From Sediminicola luteus (GTDB lineage: Bacteria > Bacteroidota > Bacteroidia > Flavobacteriales > Flavobacteriaceae): 64,000 nucleotides of DNA. Numbering within the stretch: position 1 is the stretch's first letter; each line of letters starts with the position of its first letter. The stretch lies in the NCBI RefSeq assembly GCF_002514735.1, contig NZ_NBWU01000005.1:434001-498000 (forward strand), read 5' to 3'. A model generated the notes under the pieces. It saw only the letters and a list, made by a program, of their open reading frames with translations, did not search any database and was not told the DNA's origin. Position numbers and translations under genes: made by a program. Below are positions 19,462-26,864 of the stretch, in pieces.

Positions 19462-20232
19462 TTAAGGCCTTACACTTTTTACGAACGTATCAATCCCTTG
19501 CGGACCATTTTCAGTTAGATGTTTAATACAGGCCGATCCTATAATGGCGCCTTGGGTATATTCCGTAGCCGTGTCAAAAGTTTCCTGGTCTTTGATGCCG
19601 AAACCGACGATCAATGGGTTTTTTAGGCCCATGTCAGATACTCTTTTGAAATAGGTGGTTTGCTCGGGCCCAAAACCACTTTTGCTACCCGTAACGCTGG
19701 CCGTACTTACCATATAGATAAAAGCATTGGATGCGGCATCGATCTGTCGGATACGGGCATCGGAGGTTTGTGGTGTAATCAAAAAAATGTTGGCCAAACC
19801 GTATTTTTCAAAAATAGGTTGGTAGTGTTCTTGGTATTCTTCCAAGGGTAGGTCGGGCAAAATGAGACCATCTATACCTATTTGGGCACATTGGGCACAA
19901 AAGGCATCTACCCCGTATTGCAGTACCGGATTAAAATAGCCCATGATGATTAAAGGCATATTAATATGTTCACGTACCCCGGCCAACTGTTCGAACAGTT
20001 TTTGGGTGGTCATGCCATTGTTCAAGGCCTGTGTTGAGCTGTTTTGAATGGTAGGCCCATCGGCCAAAGGGTCGCTAAAAGGGAGTCCGATCTCAACCAA
20101 ATCTACGTCGGCGGCTTCCATTTGTTTAAGCGTTGGCAAGGTATCGGCCAAATTCGGATAACCAGCAGTAAAGTATAGGGAAAGGATTTTTTTATTCTCT
20201 TTTAGTTTTGAGACGATTCGGTTCATAAACAT
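19462..20232 (-). CDS. trpA: Tryptophan synthase alpha subunit
   Basis: 256 residues, normal for TrpA. It cleaves indole-3-glycerol phosphate to indole and glyceraldehyde 3-phosphate and channels indole to TrpB. The catalytic Glu is in DLVEIGLPFSDPLADGP, the second acidic residue in IDGLILPDLPLEE, and the phosphate-binding loop in PLIVGFGI. It is the last gene of the trp operon, 35 bases after the trpF-trpB fusion. Start is ATG 20232 or ATG 20226; both leave the fold intact. Confidence 0.96.
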   Translation of the reverse strand: MFMNRIVSKLKENKKILSLYFTAGYPNLADTLPTLKQMEAADVDLVEIGLPFSDPLADGPTIQNSSTQALNNGMTTQKLFEQLAGVREHINMPLIIMGYFNPVLQYGVDAFCAQCAQIGIDGLILPDLPLEEYQEHYQPIFEKYGLANIFLITPQTSDARIRQIDAASNAFIYMVSTASVTGSKSGFGPEQTTYFKRVSDMGLKNPLIVGFGIKDQETFDTATEYTQGAIIGSACIKHLTENGPQGIDTFVKSVRP

Positions 20233-20267: not shown

Positions 20268-22154
20268 TTAAAGTTTAAAATAGTCGATATATGTATTCAA
20301 GTCCTTATCGCCTCGACCGCTGAGGTTTATGACCACCACATCGTCCGGTTTGAATTGTTTTTTCTCCAATACGGCAAAGGCATGTGAGCTTTCAATGGCC
20401 GGGATAATGCCCTCGAGTTCGCATAGTTCGAGTCCCGCCTTCATGGCGTCGGCATCGGTTATGCTGATGAACTCGCCCCGCCCTGACTGGAATAAATGCG
20501 CATGCATGGGACCCACACCCGGGTAATCGAGTCCGGCCGAGATTGAGTAGGGTTCTGTAATTTGTCCATCTGGGGTCTGCATCAACAGGGTTTTACTACC
20601 ATGTATAATACCCACCTTGCCCAAGGCCGATGTGGCGGCACTTTCACCGGAATCTACCCCTTTACCTGCAGCTTCTACGGCAATGATACCTACTTCGGGC
20701 CTATCGAGATATTGATAAAAGGCCCCTGCGGCATTAGAGCCCCCGCCGACACAGGCGATTACATAATCAGGGTTTTTACGGCCTTCTTTTTCCAGTAACT
20801 GCCATTCGATTTCCTCAGAAATAACGGCTTGGAACCGGGCTACCATATCGGGGTAGGGGTGTGGACCTACTACCGATCCTATGATGTAGTGCGTATCTAT
20901 CGGATTGTTGATCCAATCGCGAATGGCTTCGTTGGTGGCGTCTTTTAGGGTTCTACTACCCGAAAGTGCCGGTACCACAGTCGCACCCAACATTTTCATT
21001 CGGGCCACATTGGGGGCTTGGCGGGCGATATCTATTTCGCCCATATACACGATACATTCCATACCCATTAAGGCACACACTGTGGCGGTAGCCACTCCGT
21101 GTTGCCCCGCCCCGGTTTCGGCGATAATGCGCTTTTTGCCCAAGCGTTTGGCCATTAAGATCTGACCGATGGTGTTATTGACCTTATGGGCACCGGTATG
21201 GTTTAGGTCTTCTCGTTTGAGATAGATTTTGGTGTTGTAGCGTTCCGACAGTCGTTTGGCAAAATATAACGGGCTAGGTCGCCCAACATAATCTTTGAGC
21301 AGTTGTTGGAACTCTTCCTGGAACGAAGGCTCGGCCATAATCTCTAGGTATTTGGCTTTGAGCTCCGCCACATTCGGGTAGAGCATTTCAGGAATATAGG
21401 CACCCCCGAATTCTCCGTAATAGCCGTTTTCGTCGGCATGATAAGTTTGCATATTGGGTGTTCTTATGATCGTTATAAAGGCTTCCAAGGCCTGGGTATC
21501 CTTGAGGCCGGGAGCTGTTTCAAATTTACTGTTGAGGTCTAAGGCATGGCAATGGGCTGCGGCCGGACTCGCTAAAAACTCCTGTATGTTGGTGAGGTTC
21601 TCCGGCCCAATGCCCCCACTTAAAAAAAATGGTGTGGTGCTAGGGTAGTCTTGTAACAAGGTCCAATCAAAGGCGGCACCATTACCTCCTGGTAATTTAC
21701 CTTTGGTGTCGAAAAGAAAGTAATCGGTATGGGCTTCAAAGGCCTTCAAAATCGAAAAATCGAAGGTACTGCCTACGGCAAAGGCTTTGATGATGACTGG
21801 GGCTTCGACTGCCTGCCTGTCGGCAGACACGGCGCTCAGCCTAACATCGCTTTCCACTTTTTTGGGTTGGGTTAACTCTTGACGTAAGCTAGCACAATAT
21901 TCTGGGCTTTCGGAACCGTGTAACTGCACGCCGTCCAAATCAAACTCGGTTGTTTTTTGTAGTACTTCCTTAATGGATGCATCCACAAAAACCCCGATTT
22001 TTTTAGTATTAGGCGCTAATACGGGCATTTTTCCTTGAAAGGCCCGTTTGGAGGGCTCCCAAAAGATGAAGCCGAGATAATCAGCTGCCAAGGCATCAAC
22101 TTCAGCCGTATTGCGGTTCATACCGCAAACTTTTATTTTGGGATTACTTGTCAT
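20268..22154 (-). CDS. trpFB: Bifunctional phosphoribosylanthranilate isomerase / tryptophan synthase beta (TrpF-TrpB fusion)
   Basis: One uninterrupted 628-residue frame. Residues 1-234 are TrpF, with the catalytic Cys in KVCGM, GVQLHG and the catalytic Asp in [11 protein letters not shown]. Residues 235-628 are TrpB, beginning at an internal Met (ATG 21450-21452, [19 protein letters not shown]), with the PLP lysine in [10 protein letters not shown] and the PLP phosphate loop in [10 protein letters not shown]. The junction residues IIRTPN have no stop or frameshift. TrpB could also be made alone from the internal ATG. The TrpF half carries an unusual insert (about residues 100-120). The start overlaps trpC by 11 bases. 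Confidence 0.93.
21801..21850. repeat. Short palindromic element inside the trpF part
   Basis: The perfect hairpin CTGCC-TGTC-GGCAG lies at 21813-21826 in a segment coding [12 protein letters not shown]. It sits where TrpF proteins normally have a short connection before the VIIKAF strand. The insert keeps the frame. Origin as a mobile palindrome is inferred. Confidence 0.5.
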
Positions 22155-24556: not shown

Positions 24557-25972
24557 TTAAAGAATGTTTTCGGCCATGTTCAAGGCCTTGTTCAAAGCAC
24601 CGAGTTTGTTGTAGGTTTCCTGTAATTCACTTTCTGGGTCACTATCGGCCACCAAGCCGGCCCCGGCCTGAAAATGTAGGCTGTGGTCTTTGCTCAAAAA
24701 GGTACGGATCATAATAGCGTGGTTAAAATTCCCTGAAAAATCCATAAAACCTATGGCACCCCCATAATAACCCCTGCTGGTGGGTTCATACTTTTCTATG
24801 AGCTGTAAGGCCATATGCTTGGGCGCCCCGCTTAGCGTACCGGCCGGAAAGGTGTCGGCCACCAATTGGGTGGTAGGTATGGCTTCTTTTTTACGCCCGA
24901 TAACTTTAGAAACCAAATGGATCACATGTGAAAAAAATTGTACTTCTTTGTAGGTGTCCACCTGTACGGTATTACAGCTGCGGCTCAGGTCGTTTCGGGC
25001 CAGATCTACCAACATCACATGCTCGCTGTTTTCCTTATTATCCTTACTCAGTTTTTGGGCCAGATCGGCATCTTGTACGTCGTTACCCGTACGTTTAAAA
25101 GTGCCGGCTATGGGGTGGATCTCGGCGGAGCCATCGGCCACTACCAATTGGGCTTCGGGCGAACTACCGAAAATCTTAAAGTTTCCGTAGTCGAAATAGA
25201 ATAGGTAAGGTGAGGGGTTTACCGAACGTAGGGCCCGGTATACATTAAATTCATCGCCTTTAAAGGCTTGTGAAAACCGGCGTGACAATACCAGTTGGAA
25301 AACATCGCCACGTCCACAATGCTTTTTGGCCTGTACCACCAGTTCTTTGTAGGCATCATCGGAGATATTGGTGCGGGCTTCCCCTGTTTTTTCAAACGGA
25401 TAGGCCGCAAAATTCTTGACATTCAATATTTGCTCGATCTCGGCAATATTGTCGCTGCTTTCGTAACAATTAGAGAATATATAGGCCTCGTTTTTAAAGT
25501 GGTCGATGGCGATGATATTCTGGTATACCGAATAGTGAAGGTCTGGAATATCGGGGGAGTCCGATTTTTTGGTTACGGCTATATCTTCAAAATAACGAAC
25601 GGCGTCGTAGGCCATATAACCGAAAATGCCGTTTTGTATGAATTTGTAATCCGGATGGGTATTGCTGCTGAATCGTTGTGCAAATGCCTCAAGACCTCTT
25701 GTCACCTGTTGGCGCTCGGTTATGGCTGTTTTAACCTCTTGTCCGTCTGGGTAGGTTTCGGTTATGGTTTCTTGGGCTACCGTAAAATGGGCCAACGGAT
25801 TGCAACAGATATATGAAAAGCTGTTGTCGTTGGCGTGGTAGTCGCTACTTTCCAGCAAAATACTGTTCGGAAAGCGATCGCGAATCTTAAGGTAAACACT
25901 TACCGGGGTAAAGGTGTCGGCCAGTATTTTTTTACTGTGCGAGACCAATGGGTATTTCTCTTTTAGTTCCAT
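24557..25972 (-). CDS. trpE: Anthranilate synthase component I
   Basis: 471 residues, chorismate-binding enzyme that makes anthranilate from chorismate with ammonia from TrpG. The N-terminal domain contains LLESSDYHANDNSFSYI, resembling the Trp feedback site LLES of TrpE. The catalytic core shows GRGDVFQLVLSRRFS, IAGTFKRTG, EHVMLVDLARNDL and GTLSGAPK, ending with QAGAGLVADSDPE. First structural gene of the operon, 83 bases after the attenuator terminator, so control by Trp-dependent attenuation plus feedback inhibition is expected. Confidence 0.95.
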   Translation of the reverse strand: MELKEKYPLVSHSKKILADTFTPVSVYLKIRDRFPNSILLESSDYHANDNSFSYICCNPLAHFTVAQETITETYPDGQEVKTAITERQQVTRGLEAFAQRFSSNTHPDYKFIQNGIFGYMAYDAVRYFEDIAVTKKSDSPDIPDLHYSVYQNIIAIDHFKNEAYIFSNCYESSDNIAEIEQILNVKNFAAYPFEKTGEARTNISDDAYKELVVQAKKHCGRGDVFQLVLSRRFSQAFKGDEFNVYRALRSVNPSPYLFYFDYGNFKIFGSSPEAQLVVADGSAEIHPIAGTFKRTGNDVQDADLAQKLSKDNKENSEHVMLVDLARNDLSRSCNTVQVDTYKEVQFFSHVIHLVSKVIGRKKEAIPTTQLVADTFPAGTLSGAPKHMALQLIEKYEPTSRGYYGGAIGFMDFSGNFNHAIMIRTFLSKDHSLHFQAGAGLVADSDPESELQETYNKLGALNKALNMAENIL

Positions 25973-26055: not shown

Positions 26056-26085
26056 AAAAAGGCCTGTCGTGATCGACAGGCCTTT
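26056..26085 (-). terminator. trp attenuator (intrinsic terminator in the leader)
   Basis: On the minus strand a perfect 12-base stem AAAGGCCTGTCG / CGACAGGCCTTT with loop ATCA runs into a T run. It lies between the leader peptide and trpE. A competing pairing is possible between GTCGTG at the leader stop codon and CACGAC in the terminator's loop and 3' arm. Confidence 0.85.
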
Positions 26086-26115
26086 GGTATCATTGTACAC
26101 TATAGGGGAGTCTGC

Positions 26116-26172
26116 TCACGACGTCTGACGTAAGTTGCTCCACCACCAAGTATTTGTTCTTTCTCTAAACAC
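26116..26172 (-). CDS. trpL: trp operon leader peptide
   Basis: Eighteen codons from GTG 26172 to TGA 26116, read as MFRERTNTWWWSNLRQTS. Three consecutive TGG codons make it a Trp sensor: when charged tRNA-Trp is scarce the ribosome should stall there and prevent formation of the terminator 30 bases downstream. The GTG lies 5 bases beyond the -7 promoter element, so the message would be nearly leaderless and no Shine-Dalgarno is seen. No in-frame ATG exists upstream. Assignment follows from the WWW run, the promoter, the terminator and trpE in order; no experiment is implied. Confidence 0.82.
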   Translation of the reverse strand: MFRERTNTWWWSNLRQTS

Positions 26173-26177
26173 GAAGC

Positions 26178-26208
26178 CAAATGTAGCAAAGAAATCGTGA
26201 AATGCAAA
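26178..26208 (-). promoter_or_regulatory. trp operon promoter
   Basis: On the minus strand TTTG (26208-26205), exactly 19 bases, then TACATTTG (26185-26178): an ideal match to the Bacteroidota -33/-7 consensus. It lies just before the trpL start. Confidence 0.85.
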
Positions 26209-26225
26209 TCTTTGTTGGCTGAAAA

Positions 26226-26253
26226 ACAAAAAGGCCCCAAATTGTGGGGCCTT
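26226..26253 (-). terminator. Intrinsic terminator after the yceI gene
   Basis: On the minus strand AAGGCCCCA / TGGGGCCTT with a five-base loop, then a T-rich tract. It insulates marR-yceI from the trp promoter. Confidence 0.85.
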
Positions 26254-26288
26254 GGTAACGATAATCTTCTTTTTCTATGTGTATTTTG

Positions 26289-26864
26289 TTAAAACTGTAA
26301 AGCCACGTTCAGGTCGAACTCGTCGTAAATGGCCTTGTCTCCTAAAGCGCTAAAAATACTGGCAGATTTGTATTCTATTCCGTATTTGGTGCGATCTACC
26401 TTTAATTCGGCCATAGCTTTGTTCCCGTTTACCGTCATTACAAAACTAATAGGATGGGTCTTTCCTTTAATGGTCAGATCACCGGTTATCTCATAAGTAT
26501 CAGCGCCAGTAGCCGCAACTTGTTTCATTGTAAAACTAGCCGTAGGGTGGTTGGCCGTACCAAAGAAATCATCCGATTTCAAATGGCCCTCTAACTTGCC
26601 TTTGTATTCCCCCTCTAGATCGGTACAGGCAATACTGGCCATGTCTACCGTGAATGAACCACCAGTTAGCTTACCGTTTGCCATTTCCAAATGACCCGAT
26701 TTTAGATTGATGGTGCCCTCGTGGGAACCGGTTACCTTATGCCCTTTCCATACCACGGTACTTTCAGATACTTTAATATCCTTCTTGTCTCCCTTAATGG
26801 GTTCCGTAGCTTGGGCGTTGGCGAATACCAAGGCGATTACAAGGCTAAAAATGCTCTTTTTCAT
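26289..26864 (-). CDS. YceI-family periplasmic protein
   Basis: 191 residues with a signal peptide (MKKSIFSLVIALVFANAQA) and a YceI beta-barrel domain: STVVWKGHKVTGSHEGTINLKSGHL, then the paired FTVDMASI and HLKSDDFFGTANHPTASF segments and DLTIKGKTHPISF. YceI proteins have a lipocalin-like fold that binds isoprenoid-type lipids or amphiphiles; the physiological role is often unknown. It lies 26 bases after a marR gene, so it is probably repressed or controlled by that regulator. Confidence 0.9.
   Translation of the reverse strand: MKKSIFSLVIALVFANAQATEPIKGDKKDIKVSESTVVWKGHKVTGSHEGTINLKSGHLEMANGKLTGGSFTVDMASIACTDLEGEYKGKLEGHLKSDDFFGTANHPTASFTMKQVAATGADTYEITGDLTIKGKTHPISFVMTVNGNKAMAELKVDRTKYGIEYKSASIFSALGDKAIYDEFDLNVALQF

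Follow-up and report, generated by a model that had tools for sequence, protein, structure and literature searches.

A probable ribosome-mediated trp attenuator with a predicted near-leaderless GTG start upstream of trpE in Sediminicola luteus

The tryptophan operon of Sediminicola luteus raises the question of whether a ribosome-mediated attenuator can operate on an mRNA that begins almost exactly at the start codon of its leader peptide. In the window, the whole 64,000-nucleotide stretch of DNA analysed here, the operon is encoded on the minus strand and starts with trpE (24557..25972, with its ATG at 25972, identified with Pfam), followed by trpG, trpD, trpC, a trpF-trpB fusion and trpA, down to position 19462, as assigned from open reading frames and Pfam matches. 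The fusion is a single 628-aa open reading frame (20268-22154) encompassing TrpF and TrpB. A search of 26 genomes identified similarly fused, stop-free TrpF-TrpB frames in G006 and G014, with TrpF and TrpB in separate frames in most other matching relatives.

The sequence-only reading had outlined upstream of trpE a promoter, a short frame opening at a GTG with three tandem Trp codons, and a perfect terminator, and the whole layout was recovered on the minus strand. A possible -33 element, TTTG (26205..26208, assigned under a weak criterion), is read 19 nt 5' of TACATTTG (26178..26185), which corresponds to the -7 element that the primary sigma factor of flavobacteria recognizes (consensus TAHHTTTG) and has similar boxes before the leader in relatives. 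Re-measured on the window, 5 nt separate this box from the GTG (26172-26170), which opens an 18-codon leader frame (26116..26172) encoding VFRERTNTWWWSNLRQTS and read through to a TGA at 26118-26116. Codons 9-11 (26140..26148) are consecutive Trp codons and define the predicted stalling site. Beyond the frame lies a rho-independent terminator (26058..26085), whose 12-bp arms (26085-26074 and 26069-26058) pair perfectly around the loop ATCA and which ends 85 nt before the start of trpE. The locus hence presents two features that characterize ribosome-mediated attenuators: a short frame, here of 18 codons, in which codons for the pathway's end product stand in tandem (WWW), and an intrinsic terminator before the first structural gene.

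Searches with the Bacteroid-trp covariance model (RF01692) placed this element in a known family, in agreement with its earlier interpretation as an attenuator. The model matched positions 26192-26075 of the window with a score of 53.5 bits, against a gathering threshold of 49, over model positions 1-131 of 131, and with an E-value of 2.1e-5 over the whole genome, where it was the sole match at E <= 0.001. The other traits of the motif, a location upstream of tryptophan biosynthesis genes (trpE at 25972) and tandem Trp codons (codons 9-11), are present as well. Matches at E <= 0.001 were obtained in 208 of the 299 genomes of the family, 184 of them above the gathering cut-off, with 91 genomes yielding no match at that threshold, and in 20 of 345 genomes of a class-wide sample. 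Chance resemblance was rejected on the basis of the score above gathering, the E-value and the matches in 208 of the 299 family genomes. The proteobacterial Trp_leader (RF00513) was also rejected, since its match is sub-threshold (21.9 bits against a gathering threshold of 41) and falls elsewhere, at 26225-26300, off the element.

A trp attenuator in the Bacteroidota is therefore nothing new in itself, and neither is the motif, which was listed in 2010 by Weinberg et al. and, like the element in the window, is found in this phylum upstream of trpE and contains tandem Trp codons (PMC2864571). Similarly, Flavobacterium psychrophilum presents a Bacteroid-trp element before its trp operon (PMC6414381). 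The locus nonetheless goes beyond the family description. The Rfam model stops within the 5' arm of the terminator and includes neither the whole terminator nor the GTCGTGA/TCACGAC pairing described below, both of which are present in the window. Furthermore, the near-leaderless start and the GTG are features of the window that receive no mention for the Bacteroid-trp motif in the available portions of PMC2864571.

Leaders were compared across two sets of relatives with overlapping species. The first comprised 80 named trpE loci, picked solely by the similarity of TrpE to that of the window and hence leaning towards near relatives. A leader with WW or WWW precedes trpE in all 80, in two of them further upstream. 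Promoter box and start codon are separated by 4-8 nt in 56 of these loci, 33 of which have a gap of exactly 5 nt. In the other 24 the separation is 9-30 nt, with 2 loci at 9-13 nt and 22 at 15-30 nt. The box reads TATATTTG in 63 of the 78 leaders tabulated. The short class extends over many genera, among them Maribacter, Arenibacter, Zobellia, Cellulophaga, Muricauda/Flagellimonas, Eudoraea and Muriicola, as well as Galbibacter and Joostella with a gap of 8 nt, and across these genera the bases of the spacer vary while its length stays at 4-8 nt. Long-gap genera include Aquimarina, Gelidibacter, Lacinutrix and Mariniflexile. The second set was drawn from RF01692 matches; of the family-wide places, 30 were taken as loci, and 80 places were hand-picked. 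It holds 122 distinct leaders after removal of 12 duplicates and six weak matches lacking WW (L049, L051, L056-L059), with gaps of 4-8 nt in 42, 9-12 nt in 15 and at least 14 nt in 61, and with 4 left unread; being partly hand-picked, with later picks leaning to short matches, it does not lend itself to estimating proportions. Two of the weak matches, L049 and L058 (G299:C26:75-332), are neighbours near the end of a contig from a different family of the order. Among nine RF01692 leaders from outside the family, inspected by eye, none showed a gap of 4-8 nt; three had gaps of about 10-11 nt and the rest were longer or unclear.

In some relatives, the region between the trp terminator and trpE harbours an open reading frame of about 95 codons encoding a GIY-YIG nuclease. 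This insert was identified by open reading frame and Pfam match in L067 and L080, by eye in L069 and L122 and from distance only in L079 and L100. In L069 and L122, short inverted repeats were likewise seen by eye beside it. Such an insert might represent a small mobile unit landing in the attenuator region.

The position of the Trp run provides a means of assessing the GTG as leader start. The Trp run begins at codon 9 in 90 of 96 leaders with gaps of 0-8 nt and in 78 of 82 with gaps of at least 14 nt, in counts that leave out L069, L080 and L122 (gaps by eye of 7, 5 and 17 nt). Because the first Trp codon of the window is also codon 9, its GTG occupies the place of the relatives' ATG, as expected if it is the start proposed from the sequence. 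The notion that the GTG is an error standing for a lost start was rejected, given that its position and gap fit those of the relatives and that two other genomes (L165 and L200) likewise have a GTG 5 nt past the box. Among leaders with gaps of at least 14 nt, the start codons assigned by script include three TTG and no GTG.

In the window, +1 is predicted to be either the G of the GUG or the C that precedes it, yielding a 5' UTR of 0 or 1 nt. The pyrimidine-purine step C-G at this position would favour the G. The prediction follows from the spacing of flavobacterial sigma-A promoters, where starts fall 4-5 nt past the box: in F. psychrophilum the TAnnTTTG box spans -12 to -5 (PMC9723704), and of the 434 candidate boxes in F. 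johnsoniae, 241 are separated from the start by 4 or 5 nt and were regarded as probable promoters, with a -33 motif that is much less evident (PMC6847099). The part of the sequence-only reading that placed the leader almost at the transcription start is thus sustained by published promoter spacing, with the term leaderless still standing for a prediction.

An alternative that we consider unlikely retains the attenuator but has transcription begin upstream, so that the box 5 nt before the GTG goes unused and the leader frame acquires an ordinary 5' UTR. It accords with the predominance of leadered mRNAs in flavobacteria (PMC9723704, PMC6847099), where leaderless mRNAs account for 5.5% of 890 CDSs with a TSS in F. 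psychrophilum (PMC9723704) and 87% of predicted leaders in F. johnsoniae exceed 10 nt (PMC6847099), and with the relatives that carry the same element at gaps of at least 14 nt, with ordinary predicted leaders. Set against this are the recurrence of TATATTTG in 63 of 78 tabulated leaders, the location of the box 4-8 nt before the start codon in 56 of 80 loci, and a spacer that in the short class keeps this length while its bases vary. In addition, the terminator scan placed an intrinsic terminator (26231..26253, minus strand) after the upstream gene (26289-26864, with a YceI-like domain according to Pfam), which would insulate that gene from the trp promoter and leaves about 45 nt for another promoter. 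Because this terminator sits just above the trp promoter, a far-upstream start becomes less likely. The box-to-start spacing is not a general habit of the S. luteus genome, since TAHHTTTG-N5-ATG occurs 58 times in it, with no excess over the 58 occurrences of the reversed pattern, and leaderless genes as a general habit of this genome were rejected on these grounds.

The distribution of the short gap bears on whether the near-leaderless spacing matters for attenuation. On the TrpE tree, the short label requires 4 changes with three unread rows taken as not short (shuffled mean 22.1, with 0 of 500 shuffles as low) and 2 once those rows are set aside. The label is clustered, yet it does not form one clean clade: Pareuzebyella (L085), with a gap of 30 nt, is placed amid short rows, and in this tree, built with a quick method, the TrpE of the window is a long branch joined to another long branch, so that its exact place is unsure. 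Since the label follows the tree with few changes, shared descent accounts for most short-gap members.

Other amino acid operons of the same genome offer a further comparison. In F. psychrophilum, clues of attenuation have been described before amino acid operons, with structured elements before hisG and pheA (PMC9723704). The S. luteus hisG leader (L240, G000:C3) encodes the His-rich MKNNSRTHHHHFHFHAQAR after TACTTTTA-N7-ATG and is near-leaderless, with a gap of 7 nt and a hairpin and T run downstream. The pheA leader (L241, G000:C4) encodes the Phe/Tyr-rich MQRNYFWNGFYFYFFFKRGTGPL at a gap of 19 nt after TACCTTAG; it is leadered and also carries a hairpin and T run. A box reading TACNTTAG recurs before pheA in many relatives. 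His-rich short open reading frames were found at 47 of the 49 hisG loci read, and his gaps of at most 9 nt were observed in 9 of 11 genomes with a trp gap of at most 9 nt, against 0 of 14 with a longer trp gap (Fisher p 2.7e-5 over 25 genomes, entered by hand and uncorrected for kinship). Long his leaders occur in 2 of the 11 trp-short genomes, and the his leaders of long-gap relatives are leadered. This table excludes G008, whose trp box is ambiguous (trp gap 8, his gap 18) and whose inclusion would give 9 of 12, as well as genomes where no his leader or box was found (G020, G039, G051 and others), and it holds no his value for G001 and G031, the former later read as 7 nt. In ten trp-short relatives with a pheA box found, the pheA gap is 9-22 nt; gaps of 6-7 nt before pheA were seen in G004 and G025, whose trp gap is unread. 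In this lineage, the trp and his attenuators hence tend to be near-leaderless together, and that of pheA does not.

These patterns have to be weighed against a neutral explanation, in which the near-leaderless spacing is incidental and inherited within the clade, and attenuation proceeds as in leadered relatives. The few changes of the label on the TrpE tree speak for it, as do the pheA leaders that remain leadered in the same genomes, and it is a serious contender, if short of even odds. It accounts less readily for a gap that many genera keep at 4-8 nt with different spacer bases, and an accident at one locus would not be expected to have a counterpart in the his leader, although the 9 of 11 against 0 of 14 contrast is uncorrected for kinship.

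The terminator of the window is well conserved and has a modest T run. In the 92 short-gap leaders, pairing is kept in 987 of 998 cells over 11 stem pairs, and comparison of the regions upstream of trpE indicates that the WWW run and the stem both persist in relatives; their loss, which the sequence-only reading had named as grounds for abandoning the attenuator, was not observed. Only five T follow the G+C core, three of which are able to pair within the stem. This short, partly stem-pairing run explains why a simple terminator scan of the region listed the hairpin of the upstream gene (26253-26231) and omitted that of trp.

Pairing, conservation and folding all point to an antiterminator made up of GTCGTGA (26116..26122, minus strand), which includes the stop codon, and TCACGAC (26066..26072, minus strand), which comprises part of the terminator loop and the beginning of its 3' arm. 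It extends to 7 bp the alternative pairing of GTCGTG with CACGAC, overlapping the terminator, that had been noted as possible. A survey of 231 loci, in 228 of which a terminator was found, identified CGTGA together with TCACGA in 201 of the 228. Terminator function does not call for a fixed loop sequence, which leaves the common TCAC loop without any other explanation. In the 92 short-gap leaders, each of the five CGTGA pairs is kept in 91, the next pair in 85 (failing in 7) and the outermost in 56 (failing in 36), and a possible eighth pair is available in 9 of 87 leaders. Divergent members appear to lend the pairing covariation support: over 25 distinct divergent pairs, the score with each sequence's own partner was 14.72, against a permuted mean of 12.94, and 1 of 2000 permutations scored as high, with kinship uncorrected. 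A predicted protector hairpin, in which CTTACG (26129..26134, minus strand) pairs with CGTGAG (26120-26115), is paired in 504 of 552 cells in the same 92 leaders. Leaders from other families of the class (L221, L223, L224 and L234) present CGTAAG at the leader end, a compensated version of the antiterminator, with its partner at the terminator loop reading CTTGCG in the first three and CTTTACG in L234; in L225 and L234 the run of consecutive Trp codons is shorter.

Among the leaders listed, CGTGA serves as the stop or lies 5' or 3' of it, and this varied placement points to its conservation as RNA. It also fits an RNA pairing lying beside a translated frame, and the Trp run is kept, usually 8 codons past the start and before the stop, while the tail and length of the peptide vary. 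Both observations make it very improbable that the GTG frame is untranslated and that the region acts instead as a riboswitch-like element sensing a protein or tRNA.

To follow the computed pairings in their order of appearance, transcripts of increasing length were folded with the ribosome masked; these are equilibrium folds of truncated RNAs and not kinetic simulations. With the third Trp codon in the A site, 4 to 6 antiterminator pairs were predicted when 11 to 9 bases of the terminator stem were still missing, and the structure of lowest energy contained all 7 pairs when 8 to 4 were missing. With the first Trp codon in the A site, which leaves CTTACG unmasked, 5 to 7 pairs were predicted at 10 to 6 bases before completion, and the advantage of the antiterminator ended two bases sooner. 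In the folds with the ribosome at the stop codon or absent, the antiterminator was never the minimum-energy state. In silico, stalling thus exposes an antiterminator that is mutually exclusive with the terminator. Once the stem is fully transcribed, every simulated state has the terminator as its minimum, so antitermination would have to be kinetic, acting by delay while the polymerase advances.

Taken together, these results suggest, with a probability of roughly four in five, that the element controls the trpEGDC(FB)A operon as a ribosome-mediated transcription attenuator of the Bacteroid-trp family, on an mRNA that starts at the GTG or one base before it. The parts, their order, spacing and conservation are read directly from the genomes; we infer from them the start site, leaderless GUG initiation and the response to tryptophan. 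RNA polymerase would start at the G of the GUG or at the preceding C, and a ribosome would load onto the bare 5' end and translate VFRERTNTWWWSNLRQTS. When charged tRNA-Trp is scarce, the ribosome would stall on the Trp codons and hide CTTACG, while GTCGTGA would stay accessible and capture the emerging TCACGAC, in the loop and at the base of the 3' arm of the terminator. Nucleation of the terminator would thereby be delayed, and the polymerase would read into trpE. When tryptophan is plentiful, a ribosome reaching the TGA inside GTCGTGA would hide this segment, allowing the 12-bp terminator to fold and transcription to stop. If the leader is not translated, CTTACG would pair with CGTGAG and the terminator would form as well.

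The logic of this model is that of the Escherichia coli trpL leader (RF00513), where stalling at Trp codons also selects an antiterminator over the terminator. The E. coli antiterminator takes the 5' arm of the terminator, whereas that of the window takes its loop and 3' arm. The layout of the antiterminator also differs from that of the Sinorhizobium meliloti trpL, judged by the classical arrangement. The predicted start of the window does have a counterpart in this Alphaproteobacterium, in which the first codon of a WWW peptide also marks the 5' end of the trpL RNA (rnTrpL/peTrpL), a leaderless trp attenuator (PMC7298713). The S. meliloti leader opens with ATG and that of S. luteus with GTG behind a TAHHTTTG promoter. 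In mycobacteria, another phylum, an ATG or GTG at +1 suffices for initiation, whereas in E. coli a GTG gives less than 10% of leaderless activity (PMC4633059). Unlike mycobacteria with their leaderless ATG/GTG genes, flavobacteria have mostly leadered mRNAs (PMC9723704, PMC6847099). For a leaderless attenuator in the Bacteroidota, listings of the open-access literature yielded no description. The window carries a genuine, conserved regulatory element from a known family; its near-leaderless form is one for which those listings gave no Bacteroidota description.

We tentatively propose, giving it a little less than an even chance, that in a lineage of the Flavobacteriaceae the start of transcription has shifted to the leader start codon, or to within a few bases of it, in trp and his but not in pheA, that leaderless initiation, including at GUG in the S. 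luteus genome, is a working part of attenuation, and that the antiterminator seizes the terminator loop before nucleation. If true, the ribosome would load as soon as the 5' end emerges, fixing the coupling of ribosome and polymerase for a decision taken within about 115 nt of the start. Attenuators being sensitive reporters of ribosome loading time, this would bear on the choice of start codon in the Bacteroidota, a phylum without Shine-Dalgarno sequences. The analysis also extends the description of a common Rfam motif with its terminator and antiterminator. Related clades furthermore provide a natural experiment, in that they carry the same trp attenuator with predicted 5' ends of 0-4 nt in some and of roughly 9-18 nt in others, and a single genome combines short trp and his leaders with a long pheA leader, a setting in which to ask whether leaderless loading alters attenuation.
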